Source: Hyperoplus lanceolatus (Eukaryota; Chordata; Actinopteri; Uranoscopiformes; Ammodytidae). From it: a stretch of 64,000 bases of DNA. Location: the NCBI GenBank assembly GCA_026929865.2, contig CM049417.1:17008501-17072500 (forward strand), in the 5' to 3' direction. The translations under genes were made by a program, and so were the position numbers. The notes beneath the pieces were generated by a model. That model was not told the DNA's origin. It worked only from the letters and a program-made list of their open reading frames with translations, and searched no databases. Positions 443 to 16,624 of the stretch are shown piece by piece. Positions within the stretch are counted from its first letter, which is position 1. Each line of letters starts with the position of its first letter.

Positions 443-1389
443 TGCTGTATATTTAAAGGAAAGGTATAGAATGCTCATTAAAGTGTTGAACAGTTTTTTA
501 TTGTATATCTTCAGACTGCTTGTACTGGAATGTTATATGCCTGAAATAGTAGTGATACCAACAAGTGGAAGCATTGTGAAATCCATTCGACATGCACACA
601 CATGTCCTGCATCCTCACTATAACATCTCTCTCCAATAGACTAGTGTCGGTGAATCAGTCTGGTCATTCTCAGTCACGTGAGGAACTTGTCACTTTAGTT
701 ACTGTTCCTATTGAAAGGTGTCAGATGAGCACAGCAGTTCCTGCCCTCAGTGCCCCAAGCAATGAACTCTCTTTCAAATTCAATTAGATATTTACTGGGC
801 TAAAATGAGGCTACGAAAACTAAAACCACCAAGAACATCCAAAGGCAATTGAAAACACTTGCACCTTGAGTTTTCTCTTAAAAGTGTCTTTGGTGTATTG
901 AAAACTGTTACTAAACTTTTCTAATTTCAATATAAGTATGAAATAATGCACAAAGAGTCAGGAGTCCGATTTCATCATCCACAGAGACTTTAGTTGAAAC
1001 TTGCAAGTTGAGTCAGTTATCATGTACACACATGTAGTATAACAGAGAAATGACTAAAGTCAGAGAGGGATGTTACAACTTTTATACCCATACTGGCACG
1101 TATTTGTCTGACCAGGTGCTGATGACCTGGTCATCTGAGTTTCTGGAAAGATGGGGGATGAGTTTTAATTACACTGATAGTGCAAGAAGTCCTCGACCTT
1201 GGTTCTCCCCAGTATCTTGCTTTCCAGTATCTGTGTGCCAAAATTCCTTACGAGGCAGTTTTACTTCTTCAAGCAATAAGAGTAAAAACATGTTTACCAC
1301 AGTGTTGTACACCAGAGTTCAATGTGAGGTGAATAGAATGACTAGCATTAATATGTTATACAATCATGGAGAAATAGATTTCGTCAACA
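443..1389 (-). repeat. 3' LTR of the endogenous retrovirus (right boundary firm, left boundary tentative)
   Basis: Read on the minus strand it starts TGTTGAC at 1389, directly after a polypurine tract. Its first 38 bases match the stump next to gag (13572-13609) at 36 positions, which fixes the U3 start. A TATA-like TATAAAAG lies at about 1080-1088 and an AATAAA at about 497-502, both on the minus strand. The proposed end at 443 gives a CA terminus and a matching 5-bp flank. Other TG boundaries preceded by the same bases (for example at 906) are possible, so the length is not secure. Confidence 0.6.
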
Positions 1390-1890: not shown

Positions 1891-1964
1891 ATAAGATAAG
1901 ATATCCTTTATTCGTCCCACAGTGGGGAAATTTCGGTGTTGCATCACACATTAGAGCAGGAATA

Positions 1965-2010
1965 AGAGCACACAGGAGTAAAGAGCACACAGGAGTAAAG
2001 AGCACACAGA
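1965..2010. repeat. 17-bp tandem repeat in the LINE 3' UTR
   Basis: The unit agagcacacaggagtaa is present about 2.6 times, immediately inside the LINE 3' terminus. Confidence 0.8.
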
Positions 2011-2068
2011 GGGCACAGCAATAGCTGTAAATGCTTATTTAGCTTTAGACTTTGTATACGCTTATGTT

Positions 2069-2272
2069 TTAGCTTTAAACTTTGTATAAATATAAACTAT
2101 AACTATGTGAGTTAGCAGGATATGGGCAGAATAAATAATAAAGTGACAGTGACACATGTAGCACCATTATTTAGCTTTAGACTTTGTATAAATATAAACT
2201 ATAACTATGTGAGTTAGCAGGATATGGGCAGAATAAGTAATAAAGTGACAGTGACACATGTAGCACCATTAT
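2069..2272. repeat. 102-bp direct tandem duplication in the LINE 3' UTR
   Basis: Two adjacent copies (2069-2170 and 2171-2272) are almost identical and begin ttagcttta. A partial third copy of the first bases lies just to the left (about 2039-2068). Confidence 0.85.
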
Positions 2273-2338
2273 TGCACGTTCTTAAGTTACAGTATTGCAC
2301 ATGATTTCAGTATATACAGGTGAATGACATGTACAGGG

Positions 2339-4109
2339 TCAGCAGTTCTCGTTGTACAGTCTGACCGCAGCAGGAAGGAAAGACCTGCGGAATCTCTCCT
2401 TCACACAGCGAGGGTGAATCAGTCTGTCACTGAAGCTGCTCTCCAGAGCAGACAGAGTGTCCTGCAGGGGGTGACAGTCGTGGTCCAGCATGGATGTTAG
2501 TTTGTCCAGGACCCTCCTGTCCCCCACCTGCTGCACTGTGTCCAGGGGGCAGCCCAGGACAGAGCTGGACTTCCTGATGACCTTGTCCAGCTTCTTCCTG
2601 TCCCTCTCTGTGATGCTGCTGCTCCAGCAGGCTACTCCGTACAAGATGGCTGATGCCACTACAGAGTCGTAGAAGGTCTTCAGGAGAGGCCCCAATACTC
2701 CAAAAGACCTGAGTCTCCTCAGGAGGTAGAGCCGGCTTTGGCCCTTCCTGAAGAGAGCGTCCGTGTTATGAGTCCAATCCAGTTTGTGGTTCAGATGAAC
2801 ACCCAGGTACTTGTAAGAGTCCACTCTCTCAATGTCCCGTCCCTGGATGTTCACTGGGGCGGGGGCAGCAGAGTGGCGTCTGCGGAAATCCACCACCATC
2901 TCCTTGGTTTTCCCCGCGTTAATGAGGAGGTGGTTCCGCTGACACCAGTCCACAAAGTCCTGCGTTAGTCCTCTGTACTCTGCGTCGTCGTCCTCAGTGA
3001 TGAGTCCGACGATGGCAGAGTCGTCAGAGAACTTTTGCAGGACACAGCCGTCGGTGTTGTGTCTGAAGTCTGCAGTGTAGAGGGTGAAGAGGAATGGTGC
3101 GAGGACGGTCCCCTGGGGGGCCCACACACTGCAGGTCTGGACCTCAGACACACAGTCCCTGGATCTCACAAACTGAGGTCTGTCTGTGAGGTAGTCCAGG
3201 ATCCACTCAGCCAAGTCGTTGTCCACTCCCGCCGCCTCCAGCTTGTCCCTCGGGAGCCTCGGCTGGATGGTGTTGAAGGCGCTGGAGAAATCAAAAAACA
3301 GAATTCTCACAGCGGTGCCGGGCTTCTCCAGGTGGGACAGTGCACGGTGGAGGAGGGAGATGATGGCGTCCTCCACTCCGATGCCGGGCCGGTAGGCAAA
3401 CTGCAGCGGGTCCATCGCTGAGTTCACCGTGGAGCGGAGGTGGCCCAGAACGAGCCTCTCCAGGGTCTTCATCAGGTGGGATGTGAGAGCCACCGGCCTG
3501 AAGCTGCTGAGGTCTTTGGCCCGTGGTGTCTTGGGCACTGGTACCACGCACGAGGTCTTCCAGAGCTGTGGTACCGACCTCAGCTTGAGGCTCAGGTTGA
3601 AGACGCGCCCCATAACTCCACACAGTTCGTCTGCGCAGGATCGCAGAAGTCTGGAGCTGATCCCGTCCGGGCCCGCCGCTTTCCGCGCCTTAATCTTTTT
3701 TAGCTCTCTCCTCACTTCGGTGTCTGTGAAGGAGAGGGGTGCGGGCTGCGAGCTGGTGGTGGGTGAGTGGAGGAGAGGGGTGGGGGAGCTGGTGGTGGGT
3801 GAGTGGATGGGCCGTGTGGCAGTGGCAGAGGTGTTAACGACTGCAGATGAGGGGCTTTGTCCCTCAGCCACAGGGGTAGGGGGGGGCAGCAGTGCAGGGG
3901 GTGGGGCGGGTTGTTGATTGAACCTCAGGTAGAAGTTATTCAAATCATTGACCCATTGTTGGTCTCCCACCGGCTGGACGGGCGTTGGCTTGAAGCCTGA
4001 GATGGTTCTAAGGCTAGACCAAACGCCCCTGGCATCCTGTCTGCTAAGCTGCTCTTCCATCTTGCCCCTGTAGCGAGCAGCAGCCAGAAGAAGGTCCCCA
4101 GCTCTTATG
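2339..4109 (-). CDS. LINE ORF2 reverse transcriptase fragment, in frame with env
   Basis: About 590 codons of uninterrupted reverse transcriptase and C-terminal region, forming residues of about 470-1058 of one chimeric open frame that starts in the retroviral envelope at 5515. The aspartate of the first RT motif lies in FFDFSSAF (about residues 740-747). The catalytic pair is FSDD (829-832), a Ser for the usual Ala. The C-terminal segment with VACWSSS and VGDRRVLDKL is typical of the CR1/L2 group. The absence of stops suggests that the insertion is fairly young. The fusion to env is probably a chance outcome of the frame, not a selected gene. Confidence 0.8.
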
Positions 4110-5515
4110 GATAGATCCACAGCCTGCCGTTCTGTCAGTGCCACCAAGGTATTAGTGACACTGTTGGCGATCAAACGATTCAGCATTCCTCGCAGACAGG
4201 GGACCACACAGCAGCAGACCACGATCAGGACGACGAAGATCACTGCAACAGCTGTCATCGCGGTGGACAGCAACCCCGTCCATCTCCCGAAGAAGCCAGA
4301 CAGCCAACTCTGAAGGACATCACTCACACCGGCGGCCTCGTTCATCTCCTTGGACAGATTGGATAGATTCCTGAGGGCTATAGAAACTGACCCGTTGGTC
4401 TGGGTGTTCCCCGGGAGCCAGGTACAGCAATGGTCCTTGAACATGTGGCAAATGCCCCCTTTTTCGGCCAACAGGAAATCAAGTGCAATTCTATTCTGCC
4501 ATCTCATAAGTGATGTCTTATCTAGTTGTTCAGACAGACCTTTAATTGCATCTATGGTGTGGTTTACAAATCTCTGCTGATTGTAATAGATGTAATTTAT
4601 CCAAGCTAAATTCTTGTTAGCTATGCATGCTGGGCAGAAGAATGAAGCGATACCATTAGCCACTTCAGATTGAGCTTTAACCTTGTTAGGGACACCTCTG
4701 AGAACTCCAATTGAATCGATATAGACCTCACTAGTTACCCCCAGGGCCCTCTTATGTCTGCTCACTCCCCTCCCACCCGTGCTTTCAGACACTAGGCGTG
4801 TCCCGTTTGTAGGATAGACTAGGAATGGCATGACTAGGCTTACAAGAGCACATCTACCCCTCCAGTCCCCGAGACTAGCAAGCAGGCGCCCATTTCCACA
4901 TAACCACCAGATATCTCCTCTAGCCAAGTCCTGGTTGAAAAACCATTTAGATGGATAAGTTGAGTCTCCTTTCTGAGACTCAGCAGTATTTAGCATCTCA
5001 GTGCACCAGGAGGAGGGAAGTTGACCATAGTCATTTTTGCCTGTCTTTCGTTCTACACAAGTGTAGCTACCGTTGTAGATATGGACAACTGGAACATCTG
5101 CAGGTGATACAGGTGGATGAGCTTTTAGAGTTAACATGCATTGCTGTCGGACTGTGGTACTGGATTGAAATGAGCTCAAAATACACCCTAGTCTGACCCT
5201 ATCCTTTTTGTGGGTGCAAGGGTATGGCATTGTTGCCAGGCGGGGCCTAGCTGTAGTGCAGACAACACAACTGCCCTTCTGATTCAGTTGTTTAGCAGTA
5301 TATTCAACATAATTTAGCCAAAGATTGCCTGATTCCACTCCCATTTCGGTTGCTATGACATCTGCCTTAGTAAGATTGGAAAACAATCGTACATCTGGGT
5401 CAGACAATCGTTGTAAGTCTGGTACTCCAGTACCTAGTGGTTTCGGGATCACAACTAGTGTGAATTGATGAATGAGTTTTCCGTCCGGATTCTGGATGCC
5501 TATTTTATAGGTCAC
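4110..5515 (-). pseudogene. env: Retroviral envelope: most of SU, plus TM
   Basis: About 468 residues of envelope glycoprotein. The surface part has many cysteines, N-glycosylation sites and a WWLCG...WRGRCALV block typical of fish endogenous envelopes. A furin-type site RHKR lies at residues 253-256 (about 4748-4759). It is followed by the transmembrane subunit with heptad-like helices, an LDFLLAEKGGIC segment and a CX6CC motif (CHMFKDHCC, about 4424-4450), then a hydrophobic anchor at about residues 415-440. The frame opens with GTG directly after a TGA, so 5515 is not a true start: it continues the upstream env frame after a frame break. At its other end it runs without a stop into the LINE. 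Confidence 0.85.
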
Positions 5516-6464
5516 TCATACCAGTGTCACTCATTTGTGCATTACATATGGTGATCACAACTGGATTACATTTAACCATGGAATTATAGAATATTGCATA
5601 CTCCTGTTTTATCCCACGAAAGTTTGCAGAACCGGCACAACGGCATTCTCCTGTTCTGATTATTATCCATCGTTGTGCTAAGGGGTGTGTACTGTCTTTA
5701 AGGCTTTTATCAGTGTGAGCGAAGATCTCAGTGTCACAATCACCCGTACATAAGAACTTTGGCCTTTTGGTAGTACAGGCAGGTATATCTTGCTCACCCT
5801 CAATGTACTTAGTTGCATACACATCCATGCCAAACGTCGTAGTCGTACCTTCTATAACTGTCACTTTTATAGCTTTGGGTAGCCTCCACCAGACCTTCTT
5901 TTGTGTCTCATTTATCGGGACTTCATCCCTTTCAACAGTATAGTTTTTAATAGGCTCTGAGTTGGCTTCCCTTTTCCATTTTGGGTATCGTTCTGCAGAT
6001 ACAAACCATGGTGGTAGTTCGACAGGTGTCGTTGTTTGTAAGGATACTCCTACTGAACGAGTTCTATTATGGCGGGAACCGTCCTTTGAAGATTTTGGCT
6101 TGGAACTTTCAGTCCGTCTGGTTGGAGTCTTTTTGGGAGACTCCACTTTGGGTTTAGGTATTCTAGGTTTCTTTACCTTGTTTGGCTTGACTGAATTCAC
6201 TACAGTAGAGTTCTCTACTTTTGGTGGGTTTGTGGTTACTGGTCTTAATGTAACTGTTTCTAGCAGTGGTTCAGTCATTTCTTTCTCCTGTATTGGCTCT
6301 ATGTCTACAAAAGGAGGGGAATATGGTGGATCTGTTTTAGCATAAGCTCTTCTAACTCCCTCAGCAATATCCATCCATATTGGAGTCATAAAAATAATCA
6401 ACACTCCCCCTGCAAGCAGGTACCCAAGAATACTTGAGGACGAACATACTTGAGACCCTGGCAT
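5505..6464 (-). pseudogene. env: N-terminal part of env (leader and proximal SU)
   Basis: The first ATG at 6464 opens a frame of about 319 residues. Residues 13-33 form a hydrophobic signal/anchor segment. A long basic, proline- and serine-rich stretch follows with several dibasic sites, then a cysteine-rich part ending at 5505. It overlaps the main env frame by 11 bases. A 9-base direct repeat (atgagtgac on the minus strand) occurs twice at the break, which suggests a small duplication as the cause. The long leader before SU is unlike the short signal peptide of most gammaretroviruses. I assign it to env from its position and the continuity across the break, not from a recognised motif. Confidence 0.6.
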
Positions 6465-6484
6465 ATTTTTGCTATTGGTAAGAG

Positions 6485-6505
6485 CCTGAGCAAAACAAGA
6501 ATTAA
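6485..6505 (-). promoter_or_regulatory. Candidate env splice acceptor
   Basis: On the minus strand a pyrimidine-rich run ends TTGTTTTGCTCAG, with the cut after 6486, only 21 bases before the ATG at 6464. This is where a subgenomic env mRNA would be expected to begin its coding exon. It is inferred from the sequence pattern only. Confidence 0.4.
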
Positions 6506-6521
6506 AGGTAAAATAAAACAA

Positions 6522-6917: not shown

Positions 6918-8092
6918 TTATAACAAATATAGTGAACTAGAATAGTCTGAATGTACTAATTCTGTTTTAAAAATCTTTTGTAAGAGTGCTTGTGCTGCTG
7001 GGATGCTCACAACCTTTTTACAGTGTGTAAGATGAATCCAGCTGGATCTCTCAGCAATCTTTGCAGCAGTAGGTGTAGTTAGCAGGACTTGGTATGGGCC
7101 TTCCCAGCGCGGGGAGTCCCAATGTTTCCTTTTGATGACCCTTATCAAGATCCAATCACCTGGGTTCAGGATGAGTTCTACTACATCCCCAGAGGAACCT
7201 GTAACACAGGGGGAATTAGCAGTATTTTTCTTTTTTAGCATTTTTTACATGTATTCTGCTAGGGTTTCTTCTCTTTCACCTTCAGGGGTTTGGAAGCTGC
7301 CTATTTCTGGGATTCTGTATTGTCTGCCATACAACATCTCAAAAGGTGACAGGCCATCTGCAGTGGTAGTTATATGCATGCTCAACATCACCAGAGGGAG
7401 ACACTCTGCCCAATTCCTCCCTGTCTCTGCCATTATTTTTCTCAACTTAGACTTTATCGTACCATTATTCCTTTCCACAAGTCCTGCTGATTGTGGATGG
7501 TAAGCACAATGATATTTAATATCTATTTTGAGTGCTGTAGTCAATAGTTTAATGACGTTGTTTACAAAATGTGGTCCATTGTCGCTATGTATTTTCTCAG
7601 GAACTCCAAACCTTGGAATAATATCCCTCACCAGAGCCTTTGCTACAGTGGACGCATCTGCATGTGCACAGGGAAATATTTCAACCCATTTAGAGAAACA
7701 GTCAACTATAACTAAACACCATTGTTTAGCTTGACATTTGTTTAGCTCAATGAAATCCATGCAAATTGTTTGGAAAGGGTAAGATGGCTTGGGGAATGCT
7801 CCCTTCTTTGAGCGTAGTGCCCCTTGTACATTGTTTTTTGCACAAATCTGACATTGGGCACAGATTTTTTTTTTGTAAAGTTCACATAACCATAGGTTGT
7901 GAATACCCCATTGATCATATCTGTCATCCCCCCTGAAGTTAACCCATGTGTCATTATTGCAGCACATCTAAAAAGAGATTTAGGCAAAATGGGCTTTCCC
8001 TCTGAACATTCAAATAGTGCAGTCGTGGTATTAAACCGTGCTCCCTTTTTTACCCAAAAATCTCTCCCCGACTGTGGGGCTGTGTTTTGCAT
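6918..8092 (-). pseudogene. pol: Retroviral integrase
   Basis: The catalytic core is intact as sequence: D in CMDFIEL (about 7755), D in HSDNGPHF (about 7581) and E in GLVERNNG (about 7473), with 35 residues between the last two (DD35E). The N-terminal zinc-binding part has THGLTSGG and CAQCQIC, but it is split between two phases by a frameshift near 7930. The leader MQNTAPQSGRDFW...GKPILP is the usual opening of class I integrases. The C-terminal SH3-like domain with GDWILIRV and [10 protein letters not shown] (about 7060-7180) follows an in-frame TAA near 7242. It removes two bases from viral DNA ends and joins them to host DNA. Its immediate upstream neighbour in the polyprotein is the macrodomain. 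Confidence 0.92.
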
Positions 8093-8560
8093 GTCTTTAA
8101 CACTTCCTGATCAAAGTGGGTTTTCACTTCTGTTGTGAGTAGCTGTGCATGTGCAGGCAATCTGTATACTGTGATGTAAACCTCTGTGTCTTTGAAAACA
8201 TTTCCCAAAATGCCCCAATGTAGTTCATCCAACCCACACCCTATTAATGGCATAGAGACCTGTTTAACCCCATGAGCAATATAAAGTTTGCGCATGCACA
8301 CTAAACTCCTCTCCAAGTCATTATAGGTGGGTTTGTCGACTGATCGTTCCTTTGTGGTTAGATAATAGATACGCCTCCCGCCTCTTGTGAGAAACCCACA
8401 TCCACCCACAGTTGTCTGTTGTTGTTTCAGTTCTGTGACACCGCCAAACAAATGTTTGAACTTTACTGCAATTCCTGCCCCCATCTGCAAATCAGTAGCC
8501 ACACAGTGCGCTAATGCATCTAATTTTGGGGCAGAGAATAGGTCTCAATGTGAAATCAAG
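8050..8560 (-). pseudogene. OARD1/TARG1-like macrodomain within retroviral pol
   Basis: About 130 residues align by eye along their length with the small macrodomain hydrolase OARD1 (TARG1), which removes ADP-ribose from acidic residues of proteins. Visible landmarks in order are DLFSAPKLDALAHC, MGAGIAVKFKHLFGGV, RRIYYLTTKERSVDKPTY, SMPLIGCGLDELHW and a final ITVYRL strand. The GCGLD aspartate, catalytic in TARG1, is present, as is the lysine of the TTK segment. A TGA at 8544-8546 stands where the first glycine of the family would be, so this copy cannot make it intact. The domain sits downstream of the kinase and directly upstream of integrase, on the same strand and with no introns. It is therefore a captured host domain carried in the polyprotein. 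TARG1-type identity is much more likely than the Macro-D2 or viral alphavirus types. Confidence 0.88.
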
Positions 8561-9478
8561 TTTTAGTTGATCTGAAGATTTGGGCAGGTTTTGACTCAGA
8601 ATACTTCGCAGTTTATTATAGTCTGGCCTGTCTTGGTAAGCCATAAGAGCGTATTACAATCAGGAACTGTTCAATTTCCTGGGGTATACAGTCTTTAGAA
8701 AAACATTTGCTCATAAAAGTAGTCATGTTGTCACGACATTCAAGTTTGCATGCTAAAACAGCACTCGGCACAGTAATTTTATCCTCCCAGGGTAAAGTAC
8801 CACACATCCAATAAATCATTGAATAAGCTAGAGATTCCAGGTCACCACGACGACTCGGAGGAATACCTAGGTGAGCATCGATACTTGTGAACTCAAGCGT
8901 GCCATTATGACACATTTTGGGTTGTGCAATGCCAGGTCTGTGTACTCCATCAACGCTGTACCTGTAAGCCAGGCCATAGTCTATTAGATAGACTTGATTT
9001 GGATCTTCATTCTTATCATTATATTCTGGGCTTTAATGTCTGAATGCACATATTCCTGGCTGTGCACAAATTCCAAAATGTTCAGAATGTTGACTCCTAT
9101 TTTTAGAGCTAGTGTCTGTAAAAACGTTTTCCCACATGCTTCAAACTTTTTCCACAAATCTTCACCCAGTCGTGAGAGTACAAGAAATCTGTATTCCTTG
9201 CCATTATTGTTATAAATACCATGACCAAAGAACTCAGGAACACCCACTTCTGCACCTGCATGTGATTTTCGCCATTTTGATAGTGCTTGTGGCTTGGTGG
9301 CATTTAAGTAAAATTTTTGTTCAGAGAACATGGCTCCATTTTCTGCGGTTTCAAGTTTAACAACATATCTTGCTGTGTCATCTACAATGCTCTTTTCCCC
9401 ACTTTCAGCTAGGTAGACTAGACCGCAACTGCCCTGGCCTATAACTTCTCCAAGTGTCCATTTACGCCTGTTGCTATC
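8561..9478 (-). pseudogene. VRK-type protein kinase domain captured in retroviral pol
   Basis: A nearly full-length vaccinia-related-kinase domain without introns. It starts in the same open frame as RNase H, about 30 residues after that domain. Landmarks are RRKWTLGEVIGQGSCGLVYLAE (P-loop GQGSCG), the ATP lysine in YVVKLE (9356-9358), SEQKFY, the catalytic loop HSDIKAQN (Asp at 9038-9040), the VRK-specific DYG in LIDYGLAYRY in place of DFG, then NGTLEFTSIDAHLG, SRRGDLE and GTLPWED. A frameshift near 9010-9020 separates the lobes and another near 8645 precedes the VRK C-terminal helix. The catalytic residues are preserved. VRKs phosphorylate BAF, histone H3 and transcription factors. The family match is secure, but which VRK paralogue was the donor is not clear to me. 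Confidence 0.9.
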
Positions 9479-10735
9479 AACTAGTACTACACCGGGTGTT
9501 ACTTCAGTGGTTAGGGTAAGAGCTGAGACACATTTTTGTTTGTTTGAAGCAGCTTTCTTAGCTTCCTCATCTGCTTTTGCATTCCCCAAAGTGATGTAAT
9601 CTGTCCCTTTTTGATGTGCTGCACATTTACACACTGCAATGGCTTTTGGCAGCATAACAGCCTCTAATAAGTTTTCTATCAGAGGTCTGTGTTGAATATC
9701 TTTGCCTGATGAAGTTATCATACCTCGAGCCTTCCATTGCTGTGCGAATGTGTGCAACACAGAAAAAGCGTATTGGCTATTGGTAAGAATAGTAATGCTT
9801 TTACCACATCCTGCTTTACATGCTTCCGTTAAGGCAATTATCTCTGCAGCTTGTGCTGATAAATTCCCAGGTAGTGCTGCAGATTTAATTATTTTGTCAG
9901 AGGTTACAACAGCGTATCCTGTAGCGTTTGTCCCATCAGGATTCTTTTTAGATGAGCCGTCCACAAACATTGTCATATCTGAATGACTTAACGGTTCGTT
10001 TTTAAGGTCTGGCCTGGGCAGACCAAGTTCGGCTATTTCCTGTAAGCAATCATGTGGTACTACATGATTTTCGCCGTCTGTTTCAACTGGTAATAGAGCC
10101 GAGGGATCTAATGTGGTACACCTTACTATCGTTAGATGAGGGTGAGACATTAGAACAGCCATACAGGATAAATGCCTTGACGGAGACAGAAATTCTATTT
10201 TAGTCTGTGACAAGATAATGTGGACTGCATGAGGAACTTTAAGTGTAAGCTCATGAAACAATACCACTGTTGCAGATGCTTGCACGGCCATTGACACCGC
10301 GATGACTGTCTGTACACATGTTGGAAGTGCACGTGCAACCGCATCCAAACGTGAGCTGTAGAAAGCTATTGGGCGTTGTTTATCTCCATAAGTTTGTGTT
10401 AAAACAGAAGCCATATAACCGTTTCTACAGTCCACAGTTTGAGTGAATGTCTTTGTATAGTCAGGCATGGCCAGCACAGCAGAGCTCACCAGTAGCTTTT
10501 TTACATTAACAAATGCCTCTTCAGCTTCCTCTGTCCACGTCAGTTTTGCTGACGCGGCCATGGCCTCTCCATAAATGAGAGAGCTAAGGGGGACCACTTG
10601 CTGAGCATAGCTGACTATCCAACTCCTACAGAAATTAGTCATTCCCAAAAATGACATCATTTGTCTCTTTGTCAGGGGTTTTGGTGCATTCAAGATATCT
10701 TTTCGTGCATCGTCGAGGAATCGACCTTCTTTTTT
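9479..10735 (-). pseudogene. pol: RT connection domain and RNase H
   Basis: The frame continues from RT after the L1-like insertion. It opens with KEGRFLDDARKDIL and LGMTNFCRSWI (RT thumb/connection), and continues with an AFYSSRLD tether and RNase H from about 9970. RNase H residues are D in MFVDGSS, E in SAQAAEIIAL and D in GNAKADEEAK. The third catalytic aspartate, normally in TDSxYA, is Asn here (LTNSQYA; codon AAT at 9779-9781), which should abolish or cripple catalysis. The domain runs without a stop into the VRK kinase. That shows the kinase was expressed as part of the Gag-Pol polyprotein. Confidence 0.9.
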
Positions 10736-11160
10736 TAAATTGTATTTATTGAGTTTTTCAGGTTTTATACAGGGAAACAAAACAAAATGCTTGTTAAGTT
10801 GAGGAAAGTTAAGATAATAACGGATCAACTTAATTATACATGGCATCTGCTAGGTTTTGCTATGTGGCATAGGCAGTACAGCATATCTCCTTAAATTACA
10901 GCATCAATTACGTGTTGTATAGGGAAAGGATTAATTCCGTATGACATAATACACAGTCTAGATTACACAAAAATTATATGTGCCATCCAATTTGACATCT
11001 CTTATAATCGGGTTAGAACAGACAGGCAATAAAGGGTGGCCCGGTAAGTAACAACCGGACCCAAGAGAACCGTAGAATACACATAACATTTTGAGTGATC
11101 ATGTATAAATAAGAGCTTTTTGTATACTTTCCAAATAATTAACAGATAAGATGAAGATGC
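10734..11160 (-). mobile_element. L1-like 3'-end insertion in pol
   Basis: About 427 bases of non-retroviral DNA are flanked by a 17-base target-site duplication, ggaatcgaccttctttt, at 10717-10733 and 11161-11177. Read on the minus strand it ends in AACTCAATAAATACAATTTAAAAAAAG, a poly(A) end with an AATAAA signal, as left by L1-type target-primed insertion. It carries no recognisable coding sequence and is probably 5'-truncated 3' UTR. The net insertion is 444 bases (148 codons), so the pol frame is the same on both sides. Confidence 0.85.
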
Positions 11161-11944
11161 GGAATCGACCTTCTTTTGACAAATTGTAACCTAAATATTT
11201 TACTTTAGGTTGCCATAGTTGTAGTTTATTTTTACTGACCTTGTGACCTTGGTCTGCCAAAAACTTTAGTAATGCAATTGTATCACTTTTGCATGTCTCC
11301 TTGTTGTCAGAAGCACATAGTATGTCATCAACGTACAATAAAATTTGACTGCCCCCTGGTGGGTTGAATTTAGCTAGATTGTTTGACATTACTTGAGAGA
11401 AGATAGTTGGTGTTTCACAATACCCCTGAGGTATTCGAGTGTAAGTGTACCTTTTGTTCCTATAGGTAAATGCAAACCAAAACTGACTGCTTTTGTCCAC
11501 AGGTATGCTAAAGAATGCATTACTTATGTCAACTACTGAAAAATAGGCACTGGATGGTCTGAGATCATTTAGTAAAAGGTGTGGGTCTGGCACAACAGGT
11601 GCTCTAGCAACCACAGCTTTATTGACTGCTTGTAAGTCCTGTACCATTCTCCAGCCTGTAGATGGAGCTGCTTTTTTTACAGGAAATAGCGGAGTGTTAC
11701 ACGGTGAATCAGGACATTGTACTATGACCCCAGCAATTTTGAGATCCTCTATTATTGGCGCAATACCATCCTCAGCCTCCTTTTTTAAAGGATACTGACG
11801 TTGGTGCGGCATAATAGTTGTTTTTGCAGTGATTATTACAGGTTTTACATCTCTGATTAACCCTACGTCAGCCGTCCCTTTGGACCATAATTTCTCAGGT
11901 ACAGTGGATAATTCATTCTCCTCATCAATAGTCAATTCTAGCAC
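11161..11944 (-). pseudogene. pol: Retroviral reverse transcriptase (fingers and palm)
   Basis: About 260 residues of RT. Landmarks are PLFPVKK, GWRMVQDLQAVN, VVDISNAFFSIPV (first catalytic Asp), RIPQGYCETPTIFSQ, the YVDD box with LLYVDDILCAS (residues 204-207, about 11324-11335) and KVKYLGYNLSKEGRF. All three catalytic aspartates are present. The frame is the same as that of protease and the 2H-like segment, separated from the latter by a single TGA at 11954-11956. It was split from its connection domain by the L1-like insertion. Confidence 0.95.
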
Positions 11945-11956
11945 TTCAATGGGTCA

Positions 11957-12500
11957 GCGCTGTTTATTTGGACATGTCTCTGGACAGTCCAGATGAATAG
12001 CTGGTTTTGCAGTTACTCTCCATTGTAGTGTCATCTTGTAAGCTTGCAATCTATGGCTGAAATAACAACCTGAGTCTAGTTTTTTCCAATTCGTCTCTCC
12101 CTCACATTGGCTTACAAACAAGCCTATTTCTTGCCAAGTATCTGTCTTTGGTTTAGATAAGGAAATATGTGGCTCTGTGTGCGTCCTTGATAACTTTAGA
12201 TAGTAAGGGTTCAGCTGGGCGTGCACACCACATCTATTATCTTTGTCCCAATATAGATTTGTTAGTGAAAATGACGTTTGTGAATACTTCATCAATTGAG
12301 CCTCAAACTCACTGTCTGGGCCTGGTTTTTGTCTGTAAAGCAGAGTAACATGCATTTCGTCTGCTGTTATGAAATCAGCTACAGGAGAGACTTTTTCTTT
12401 AACCAAATCAGATAATGGCCCAGTTACTGCCCCTGGGCCCTTGCCAGTTAAGTCAAGGGTGTAGTAATATCTTGGATCACCCGCCTGTTGTTGAATATAC
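11957..12500 (-). pseudogene. 2H-phosphoesterase-like segment between protease and RT
   Basis: About 180 residues not belonging to standard PR or RT. Two H-x-[T/S]-hydrophobic motifs are visible, MHVTLLY (His near 12352) and EPHISLSK (His near 12169), 61 residues apart in a strand-rich context. This is the signature of the 2H phosphoesterase superfamily, whose viral members include enzymes that cut 2-5A and so block RNase L. The distance is a little short for the family and I see no other diagnostic motif, so the assignment rests on the two motifs. It could instead be a lineage-specific structural domain. It is contiguous with PR upstream and ends one stop codon before RT. Confidence 0.6.
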
Positions 12501-12877
12501 AGGTTCTGAAGCCTCCGTGCTTCCAACCCGGTCTCAACAGGTACTACAGAAATGTTAAATGCTTTTAACAAGTCACATCCCGACAGATTACACGGGCAGA
12601 CACTGGACAGTATGATTTGTGTTTCAAGCTGCACTGAGCTTTCTGGGTCTGTAATTTCACATTTTTCTCACAGATATTCTGGATGAATTCTGCTGTTTGC
12701 TGATTTAACAAATATTTTGTCATTTGTTGCTTTCAACCATGGGACAGAATCAGGCCTCACTACAGAGCGTGTTGCTCCTGTGTCACAGAGAAATATTACA
12801 GGATTTCCTCCAAGGTTTAAAGTGATAAATGGTTTGGTATCGTTTAAAAGCATGAAATGTGCTTGGGCTAGACACAC
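12501..12877 (-). pseudogene. pro: Retroviral aspartic protease
   Basis: The active-site strand reads PVIFLCDTGATRSVV with the catalytic DTG (about 12786-12778). The C-terminal part has NLSGCDLLKAF in the position of the family's GRDLL helix. The frame is continuous with gag upstream and the 2H-like segment downstream. An in-frame TGA (12665-12667) falls inside the domain, after HPEYL, and is more likely decay than regulation. The listed start is arbitrary because the frame is open upstream of GTG at 12877 to a TAG at 12956-12958. Confidence 0.85.
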
Positions 12878-13021: not shown

Positions 13022-13569
13022 TCATAAGTCCCTTTTCTCTTTCTGATACTCTCTTTCTTTCCGAGGGTGGGGACAGTTGCGTCGCCAGTGATCTTCCTGG
13101 ACGCAATTGAAACACCCAGTTTGCTTTTTTTCCTCTTTGGCCTTTCTGTCTTTCCCACCTTTCCATTGCTTTCTATTACACTCATCTCTCCCGCCTTTTG
13201 CAGTTGCCTGGAAGAATAAATCACCTGACTTCTGGAGCGGTGTGCCTTCTGTGTTTACAACGTAAATGTTAGTGCGCTGTCTATCTTTATCTCTGTTTTT
13301 CTTGCTCTCCTTCTTTCTTTCCTGCTCCTTGTGTACCTTTTCAGCGTGTAAACAATGTGTTACAATTTCTTTGAGATCTTTTGAGTTCCAACCGACTAAA
13401 TGTAAGTGAACAAAGTCTCTGATGTGAGGTAACACTCCTAACAACAACACATTTTTGAGCTGTTGGTTGTAAGGTGCATCTGGCATGTCCCCTGGATCTG
13501 GAATTGGTAAGCCACTGTTTAGAGCAAAGATCTTAGACAATCTGCCATAATAGCTTTCTACATCCTCAT
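13022..13569 (-). pseudogene. gag: gag remnant: capsid C-terminus and nucleocapsid
   Basis: The open frame begins at the fusion with the LTR stump and encodes the end of capsid (VESYYGRL, LLLGVLPHIRDF, LKEIVTHCLHAEKV). A highly basic linker and one zinc knuckle follow, CFNCVQEDHWRRNC (Cx2Cx4Hx4C, 13073-13114). The first stop is TGA at 13022-13024. A second, TAG at 12956-12958, follows in the same frame after an acidic stretch, and protease follows in that frame. One of the two may have been the natural gag-pol readthrough stop, as in gamma- and epsilonretroviruses. Matrix and most of capsid are missing. Confidence 0.85.
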
Positions 13570-13570
13570 C

Positions 13571-13609
13571 CTATGTTATACAATCATGGAGAAATATATT
13601 TTGTCAACA
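13571..13609 (-). repeat. Stump of the 5' LTR
   Basis: Thirty-eight bases opening TGTTGAC match the start of the 3' LTR with two mismatches, then pass directly into gag at 13570. The rest of the 5' LTR, the primer-binding site, leader and 5' gag are deleted. Confidence 0.8.
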
Positions 13610-13614
13610 AAAAC

Positions 13615-15843: not shown

Positions 15844-16624
15844 TATAGAGACAGTGCATGAAATAGGCAACGCCCATGGCCACGCCCATCGTGGGGGAAA
15901 ACATTGAACAGCGCTCCATCCACTTTGTATTGAAGGAGACCTGTCTTCTGCAAACAAACTTAATTAAAACGTAATCGAACATCCATTTAAGAAAAAAACG
16001 TCACTTTCTTGAAAGCCACGACTCTTGTTTGTCTATATGAGCTGTTTTTGTGAAAAATAATTGAGTGGTTTTCAATATTGAGGTGTTTTTGTCCGGTCGG
16101 ACCGGGTCAGACCCATCGAGGGGGAAACCGTTCCATTCACTTTGTATTGAAGGAGACCTGTCTTCTACAAACAAACTTAATTAAAACTTATTCAAACATC
16201 CATTTAACAAAAAACCGTTACTTTCTTTAAAGCCATGACTCTTGTCTGTCCATACGAGCTGTTTTTGTGAAAAATAATTGAGTACTTTTCAATATTGAGG
16301 TGTTTTTTTCCCGTCCGTGAGGGTTAGCCTACAGCAGAAGGCTAACATTAGCCTAGCATACAGCATACATTAGTTAAGAGTTTTGTCTCGATATTGAAAA
16401 TTACTCAATACTTTTTCACAAAAACAGCTCGTATAGACAGACAAGAGTCGTGGCTTTAAAGAAAGTAACGTGTATTTGTGAAAGCCATGTCGTATTACGT
16501 TTTTATTAAGTTTGTTTGCCGAATACGGGTGTCATTCAATATAAAGTGGATGGAGCGCTGTGTATTGTTTTCCCCCACGATGGGCGTGGCCTCAGATTAT
16601 GACGCTTTATGCACTGTCTCTATA
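15844..16624. mobile_element. Foldback MITE with TA ends
   Basis: Long inverted repeats begin tatagagacagtgcat at 15844 and end atgcactgtctctata at 16624, extending about 230 bases inward. An extra direct copy of the inner part occupies about 16100-16330. No coding capacity is seen. The size and TA ends suit a Tc1/mariner-class or related non-autonomous element. Confidence 0.75.

Follow-up and report, generated by a model that had tools for sequence, protein, structure and literature searches.

The 64,000-nucleotide stretch of the Hyperoplus lanceolatus assembly GCA_026929865.2 analysed here (contig CM049417.1, positions 17,008,501 to 17,072,500; hereafter the window) carries on its minus strand, from 13609 to 906, what its sequence identifies as a decayed class I (gamma/epsilon-like) endogenous retrovirus (ERV), whose pol holds a VRK1-type protein kinase and an OARD1/TARG1-type macro domain between RNase H and integrase. 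We consider it probable that an ancestor of this virus captured VRK1 and OARD1 and kept them as a cassette, for a long time and under purifying selection, before the present copy integrated. This suggests that enzymes taken from its host once belonged to the regular equipment of the virus. Retroviruses rarely take up host genes within pol while keeping their own genes, and capture of a VRK is striking, as VRKs control BAF, a protein that binds retroviral preintegration complexes.

The kinase and macro domains within pol

Both halves of the kinase matched VRK1 best in PDB, in agreement with a preliminary description of this DNA, made from the letters alone, that had placed a VRK-type kinase in a retroviral pol; the surrounding provirus, with long terminal repeat (LTR) and target-site duplication, agrees with it as well. 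The piece 9478-8984 (minus strand) matched VRK1 with an E-value of 2.5e-41, VRK2 with 1.7e-35 and VRK3 with 9.6e-20, followed by casein kinase I; for the second half (8990-8616) the values were 5.8e-38, 3.6e-27 and 4.2e-16, correspondingly, with casein kinase I again next. The VRK1-type assignment denotes the best match among solved structures only, not a position in a kinase tree. The motifs GQGSCG, VVKLE, FSEQKFY, HSDIKAQN, DYG, TSIDAH and SRRGDLE were all read in the kinase, including the four VRK hallmarks listed earlier (GQGSCG, HSDIKAQN, DYG and SRRGDLE), and the residues with catalytic roles in VRK kinases (the Lys, the Glu, HxD..K..N, DYG and SRRGDLE) are retained.

An open reading frame (ORF) of 620 amino acids (10846-8984) runs without a stop from RNase H into the kinase, which was correctly said to start in the RNase H frame. 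By eye, homology to the VRK1 gene of the same genome (host VRK1, contig C14) spans from about 9508 to about 8549, starting at host PPGEVLFD and stopping near QLDFT, and thereby covers the whole catalytic domain without the C-terminal VRK1 tail. The limits first proposed for the kinase, 8561..9478, were nearly right, except that the frame changes at least twice inside it. The host gene is divided into at least eight exon matches and the viral copy is uninterrupted at those places, so the kinase is intronless, as had been noted. As read today, the gene is broken, since the frame changes near 9000, near 8640 and once more at the junction with the macro domain. The position between RNase H and integrase and the frame shared with RNase H are directly visible; the frame from kinase through macro domain to integrase is interrupted at present and was presumably continuous in the past.

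The macro domain is fused straight onto the end of the kinase, with no linker, and matches OARD1 (PDB 4j5r, E 5.7e-29). The preliminary description was right in placing integrase downstream of the kinase, but overlooked that the macro domain comes first; it also overlooked the 2H-like domain before the reverse transcriptase (RT) and the published fish retroviruses with macro or CNPase genes. Both TARG1 catalytic positions, a Lys and an Asp (K84 and D125 in human numbering), are kept in the viral domain and in the host gene, and four residues are gone from the viral domain after GCGLDELHW. The host OARD1-type gene is interrupted between SMPR and IGCGL, where the viral domain runs through.

Ten related pol stretches were compared in the same genome (807 Mb in 527 contigs, the window being part of it). 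In nine of them RNase H and integrase are joined by a short linker that holds neither kinase nor macro domain; by RT and copy similarity these nine represent about four lineages, not nine independent cases, and the tenth (L029) has no pol match and is uninformative. The gap between RNase H and the first matched integrase residue was 199-274 nt in the five stretches measured and about 1600 nt in the window. It should be added that one of the nine, L027, has extra DNA within its integrase, with no kinase match and with a short linker. The best RT match elsewhere in the genome reached 58% (among the best 138 of 671 candidates).

OARD1-type macro domains were also seen in two other ERVs, L005 (G000 C15:1182576-1185956) and L004 (C16:6945940-6949305), where they stand between protease and a 2H-like domain that itself precedes RT; the open frames there are long, 1518 and 714 amino acids, respectively. 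Both catalytic positions are lost in these two domains. Identity to human OARD1 is 59/113 for the window domain, 64/117 for L004 and 65/117 for L005, while the values among the viral domains are 54/117 and 56/117. Because each domain is nearer to human OARD1 than to the other, two separate captures seem on balance the likelier origin, although shared columns are nearly even (six common to the three viral domains against human, eight common to window and human against L004 and L005) and the comparison has no tree behind it. In an RT tree built from the window together with 14 ERV stretches, all from the same genome, the window RT lies far from those of L004 and L005. With these elements there is further evidence that OARD1-type macro domains have occupied two distinct positions in the pol of fish retroviruses.

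Divergence, constraint and age of the kinase

The viral kinase and host VRK1 were compared over 226 codons, which are the alignable parts of eight exon stretches, unaligned parts being excluded. The encoded residue is identical in 123 of these (54%), and the proportions of differing silent (pS) and replacement (pN) sites are 0.82 and 0.30. Differences fall on the three codon positions as 77/60/144, and silent sites are saturated. Both kinase pieces are free of stops until their ends. When host codons were left to drift neutrally to the same identity, the frame remained stop-free in 1 of 500 and 1 of 1000 runs, and in 13 of 1000 when drift was limited to the viral branch (79/225 residues, three-point counting). 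The LTR of the provirus is 1.5% (Kimura two-parameter distance) from its nearest copy and 1.5-5.8% from 15 other copies aligned. Since silent sites are saturated while the LTR is so close to its nearest copy, the divergence of the kinase is, by these comparisons, much older than the insertion. The divergence built up while the sequence was constrained; the simplest reading is that it was a viral gene at that time, in which case the constraint would have been viral.

These results bear on the possibility that a host VRK1 retrocopy landed by chance in an old provirus, as lack of introns and a single copy would allow. The kinase, however, shares the RNase H frame and adjoins the macro domain directly, and its silent sites have reached saturation relative to host VRK1, in contrast to the low divergence of the 15 other LTR copies. 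The preliminary description had named target-site duplications and a poly(A) tail as signs of a retrocopy; every A/T run in 8000-9600 is shorter than 7, and the examined flanks share no repeat longer than 8 nt. A later retrocopy was rejected on account of the shared frame, the missing A/T run and flank repeat and the gap between kinase and LTR divergence, and we regard it as highly improbable.

Several observations weigh against a kinase long maintained by the virus. It was found once in the genome, by a protein search with its N-terminal half and a DNA search with 8600-9478, and is frameshifted today; moreover, constraint read from pN/pS relative to host VRK1, taken by itself, could lie on either branch. 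No second copy of the element spans the kinase site, and the copy on contig C199 cannot confirm the kinase because its match ends inside integrase, before that site. Of 219 candidates in a protein set not one reached E 0.001, and viral contigs yielded no confirmed relative (6 pattern stretches for the kinase, 76 for integrase and 85 for the macro domain), negatives that say little because even VRK or retroviral relatives failed to appear there. An LTTEV repeat at both borders of the cassette was dropped as being at chance level (154 of 1000 shuffles reach it).

The single copy and the silence of pN/pS on the constrained branch would fit a recent, one-off capture of an already diverged cellular VRK, from a fast paralogue or a distant host, whereby the constraint would have been cellular and not viral. 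Against this, host VRK1 shares fewer residues with the viral kinase (122/225) than with human VRK1 (166/225), and an ordinary vertebrate VRK1 would not be expected at such distance. Furthermore, at sites where host and human disagree, the viral kinase sides with the host gene 21 times and with human 10 times, a modest signal, and a DNA search of this genome revealed no similar cellular VRK copy. We therefore deem one-off capture unlikely and prefer long maintenance by the virus. The earlier proposal that the kinase had been a regular viral enzyme finds indirect support in its stop-free pieces, its constraint and a divergence older than the insertion, and is held back by the single copy. A kinase confined to one insertion had been named as evidence to the contrary; in this genome it was indeed found once, and the C199 copy, which stops short of the site, cannot decide the question.

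Organisation of the provirus

Coordinates of the features are given in Table 1. In coding direction their order is zinc knuckle, protease, 2H-like domain, RT, RNase H, kinase, macro domain, integrase with a C-terminus of murine leukaemia virus (MLV) type, env-like region and LTR. The hallmarks of class I Retroviridae are present, namely LTRs, target-site duplication, gag nucleocapsid, protease (by eye only), RT, RNase H and integrase with MLV-type C-terminus. The preliminary description had likewise held that the rest of the viral genome is there, which is borne out by profile for gag, RT, RNase H and integrase and by eye for protease and env. The 5' LTR and the start of gag were lost through a deletion located away from the kinase.

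Table 1. Features of the provirus and its borders, in window coordinates
Feature	Position	Strand	Evidence
Target-site duplication GTTTT, gag side	13610..13614		read from sequence
5' LTR remnant, 38 bp, deletion-joined to mid-gag	13572..13609	-	36/38 identical to 3' LTR
gag remnant with zinc knuckle	13022..13571	-	zf-CCHC E 4.4e-4, 20.7 bits, slightly below the 20.8 cut-off
Protease remnant (LCDTGATRS ... NLSGCDLL), limits approximate, one internal stop	12536..12850	-	by eye; C-terminal part weakly like retroviral proteases, best E 0.085
2H-phosphoesterase-like (CNPase-like?) domain, between protease and RT	11954..12535	-	two invariant His among aligned ERV rows
Reverse transcriptase (YVDD)	11161..11944	-	RVT_1 1.7e-28
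RT connection and RNase H, same frame as kinase	9479..10846	-	RNase_H 1.5e-22; shared ORF
VRK1-type kinase domain, intronless, at least 2 frameshifts	8549..9508	-	PDB matches, host VRK1 alignment
OARD1/TARG1-type macro domain, immediately after kinase	8158..8544	-	PDB 4j5r E 5.7e-29; Pfam Macro 0.0032, under its cut-off
Integrase (N-terminal part, core, MLV-type C-terminus), frameshifted	6918..8092	-	rve 9.3e-20, MLVIN_C 4.2e-16; N-terminal part by eye
env-like region	4100..6521	-	ORFs; CHMFKDHCC at 4450
Later non-LTR retrotransposon insertion	1893..4099	-	RT-like ORF by eye; missing from second copy L042
3' LTR (TGTTGAC...GTAACA), 484 bp	906..1389	-	genome-wide repeat
Target-site duplication GTTTT, LTR side	901..905		read from sequence

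Counting itself, the 3' LTR has at least 52 matches in the genome, of which at least 16 cover its full length (40 of 94 candidates scored), with more distant matches down to 77% identity. Of 20 loci cut out, 13 are distinct copies that have full ends and 1.5-kb flanks free of internal sequence; their 5-bp target duplications are exact in 10 of 13 and match at 4 of 5 bases in the other three. The second copy of the element, on C199, is mostly 96-98% identical over the matched stretches. The non-LTR element at 1893-4099 is a later insertion, since it is absent from this copy (L042), where matches to 1892 and 4100 sit 14 bases apart. The second copy bears an insertion of its own, of about 2.1 kb, in the env region (L071 113-2241, C199). 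Within the env-like region of the window, the motif CHMFKDHCC fits the CX6CC pattern of gamma-type env; a Pfam scan of 5505-6521, the only part scanned, gave no match.

The 2H-like domain between protease and RT is common to many ERVs of this genome (window 11954-12634, L006-L025), and the piece 11954-12634 has 22 genome matches, itself included. Similarity is low (19-27% across nine aligned) with two His constant: H95 and H156 are invariant in 10 of 10 aligned rows, and the T/S two places after the His is not preserved in all of them. Pfam and PDB profile searches returned no match backing the 2H/CNPase name, and a single-sequence fold gave a useless model, with a predicted local distance difference test (pLDDT) score of 31.8.

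Two further observations concern the DNA itself. About 300 bp of foreign-looking sequence (10830-11160) separates RT from RNase H, and this split is bordered by similar, unequal coding stretches (YNLSKEGRF / YNLKKEGRF). At 15912-16327 the window has a 199-bp direct repeat, in two copies that are 88% alike.

Possible function and known systems

The proposed history starts with two processed host mRNAs, VRK1 and OARD1, which would have been captured, in the same or separate events, into the RNase H-integrase linker; the cassette would then have been carried in Gag-Pol under long purifying selection until this copy integrated. By likeness to dUTPase, it may have been made within Gag-Pol and packaged, and the protease may have released it. 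Since some retroviral dUTPases sit in Gag-Pol and are expected to be packaged, a Pol-borne kinase would be expected to arrive with the viral core. There, if active, its most likely task would have been to phosphorylate chromatin-type targets close to the incoming viral DNA, as VRKs do, with BAF first among them; the macro domain would have removed ADP-ribose.

VRK1 and poxvirus B1 are described as phosphorylating BAF, which blocks its DNA binding, and BAF as being present on retroviral preintegration complexes. For these reasons, and because the kinase is predicted to be virion-borne, BAF is the first candidate; by this analogy it is a possible main target, though we would stop short of calling it a probable one. 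Other reports point the opposite way. One study, going by its title, reports disruption of the MLV preintegration complex by VRKs, which speaks against a simple benefit. BAF is described as exploited by retroviruses to their own advantage, and VRK1 delivered with DNA cut BAF clusters, yet lowered reporter expression compared with dead kinase. A role in BAF control would accordingly need timed or local action of the kinase. Further sources cited for the analysis as a whole are PMC8672886, PMC10499221, PMC6001957, PMC4063967 and PMC12718190.

Alternatively, the viral gene was not aimed at BAF and drove growth or transcription, like Src of Rous sarcoma virus (RSV) or the walleye virus cyclins, a serious rival that we hold tentatively and with slightly less confidence than BAF as main target. 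Against this rival, the position in Pol would predict a low, virion-borne dose at entry, whereas the src product is translated on its own, and the partner is a de-ADP-ribosylating fold, which one would hardly expect in place of a growth factor. VRK1 targets include p53, CREB/ATF2 and histone H3. In favour of growth-promoting targets, replication-competent retroviruses with captured growth genes are described in PMC4299795, and loss of BAF from viral DNA may, according to the title of one paper, harm retroviral integration. Returning to BAF, the fuller proposal that virions of a retroviral lineage carried a module of VRK and ADP-ribose hydrolase to manage BAF, and PARP marks as well, on the DNA brought in seems rather doubtful. 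If true, that lineage would have had an equivalent of the poxvirus B1-BAF system, directed at the factor named for blocking retroviral autointegration. With this case it becomes possible to test if a retrovirus has ever acquired BAF control of its own.

Among known systems, feline immunodeficiency virus and equine infectious anaemia virus are retroviruses with dUTPase between RT and integrase. PMC2427051 places dUTPase there in some retroviruses, as part of Gag-Pol and expected to be packaged. The likeness is that of a captured enzyme in a comparable position of pol, whereas the window has a protein kinase and a macro domain and not a nucleotide enzyme. Poxvirus B1 and cellular VRK1 belong to the same kinase family, VRK1 being the closest solved relative; the window differs by its retroviral carrier and the absent C-terminal VRK1 tail. 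With OARD1/TARG1 the window shares the macro fold and two catalytic positions and differs by the four missing residues and the embedding in Pol.

The captured gene replaced no viral genes, which departs from the pattern of acutely transforming retroviruses. Host genes captured with viral domains kept are known from CrocERV29 (KIT-ligand), RSV (src) and walleye virus (cyclins) (PMC4299795). KIT-ligand lies between pol and env, src and the cyclins are additional growth-linked proteins, and none is described there within pol. Also close are fish epsilon-like ERVs with extra CNPase or macro-domain ORFs (Basta et al. 2009, cited in Naville and Volff 2016, PMC4977317). They resemble the window in carrying extra cellular genes of this kind; the cited passage names no kinase, whereas in the window a VRK, joined to the macro domain, occupies the RNase H-integrase interval. 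In accordance with the preliminary description, no retroviral VRK was described in the open-access literature searched, the full gene list of Basta et al. lying outside that search. As far as these sources allow, fish ERVs with macro or CNPase ORFs and a few captures without loss of viral genes were thus already known, and what appears new here is a VRK in a retroviral pol.
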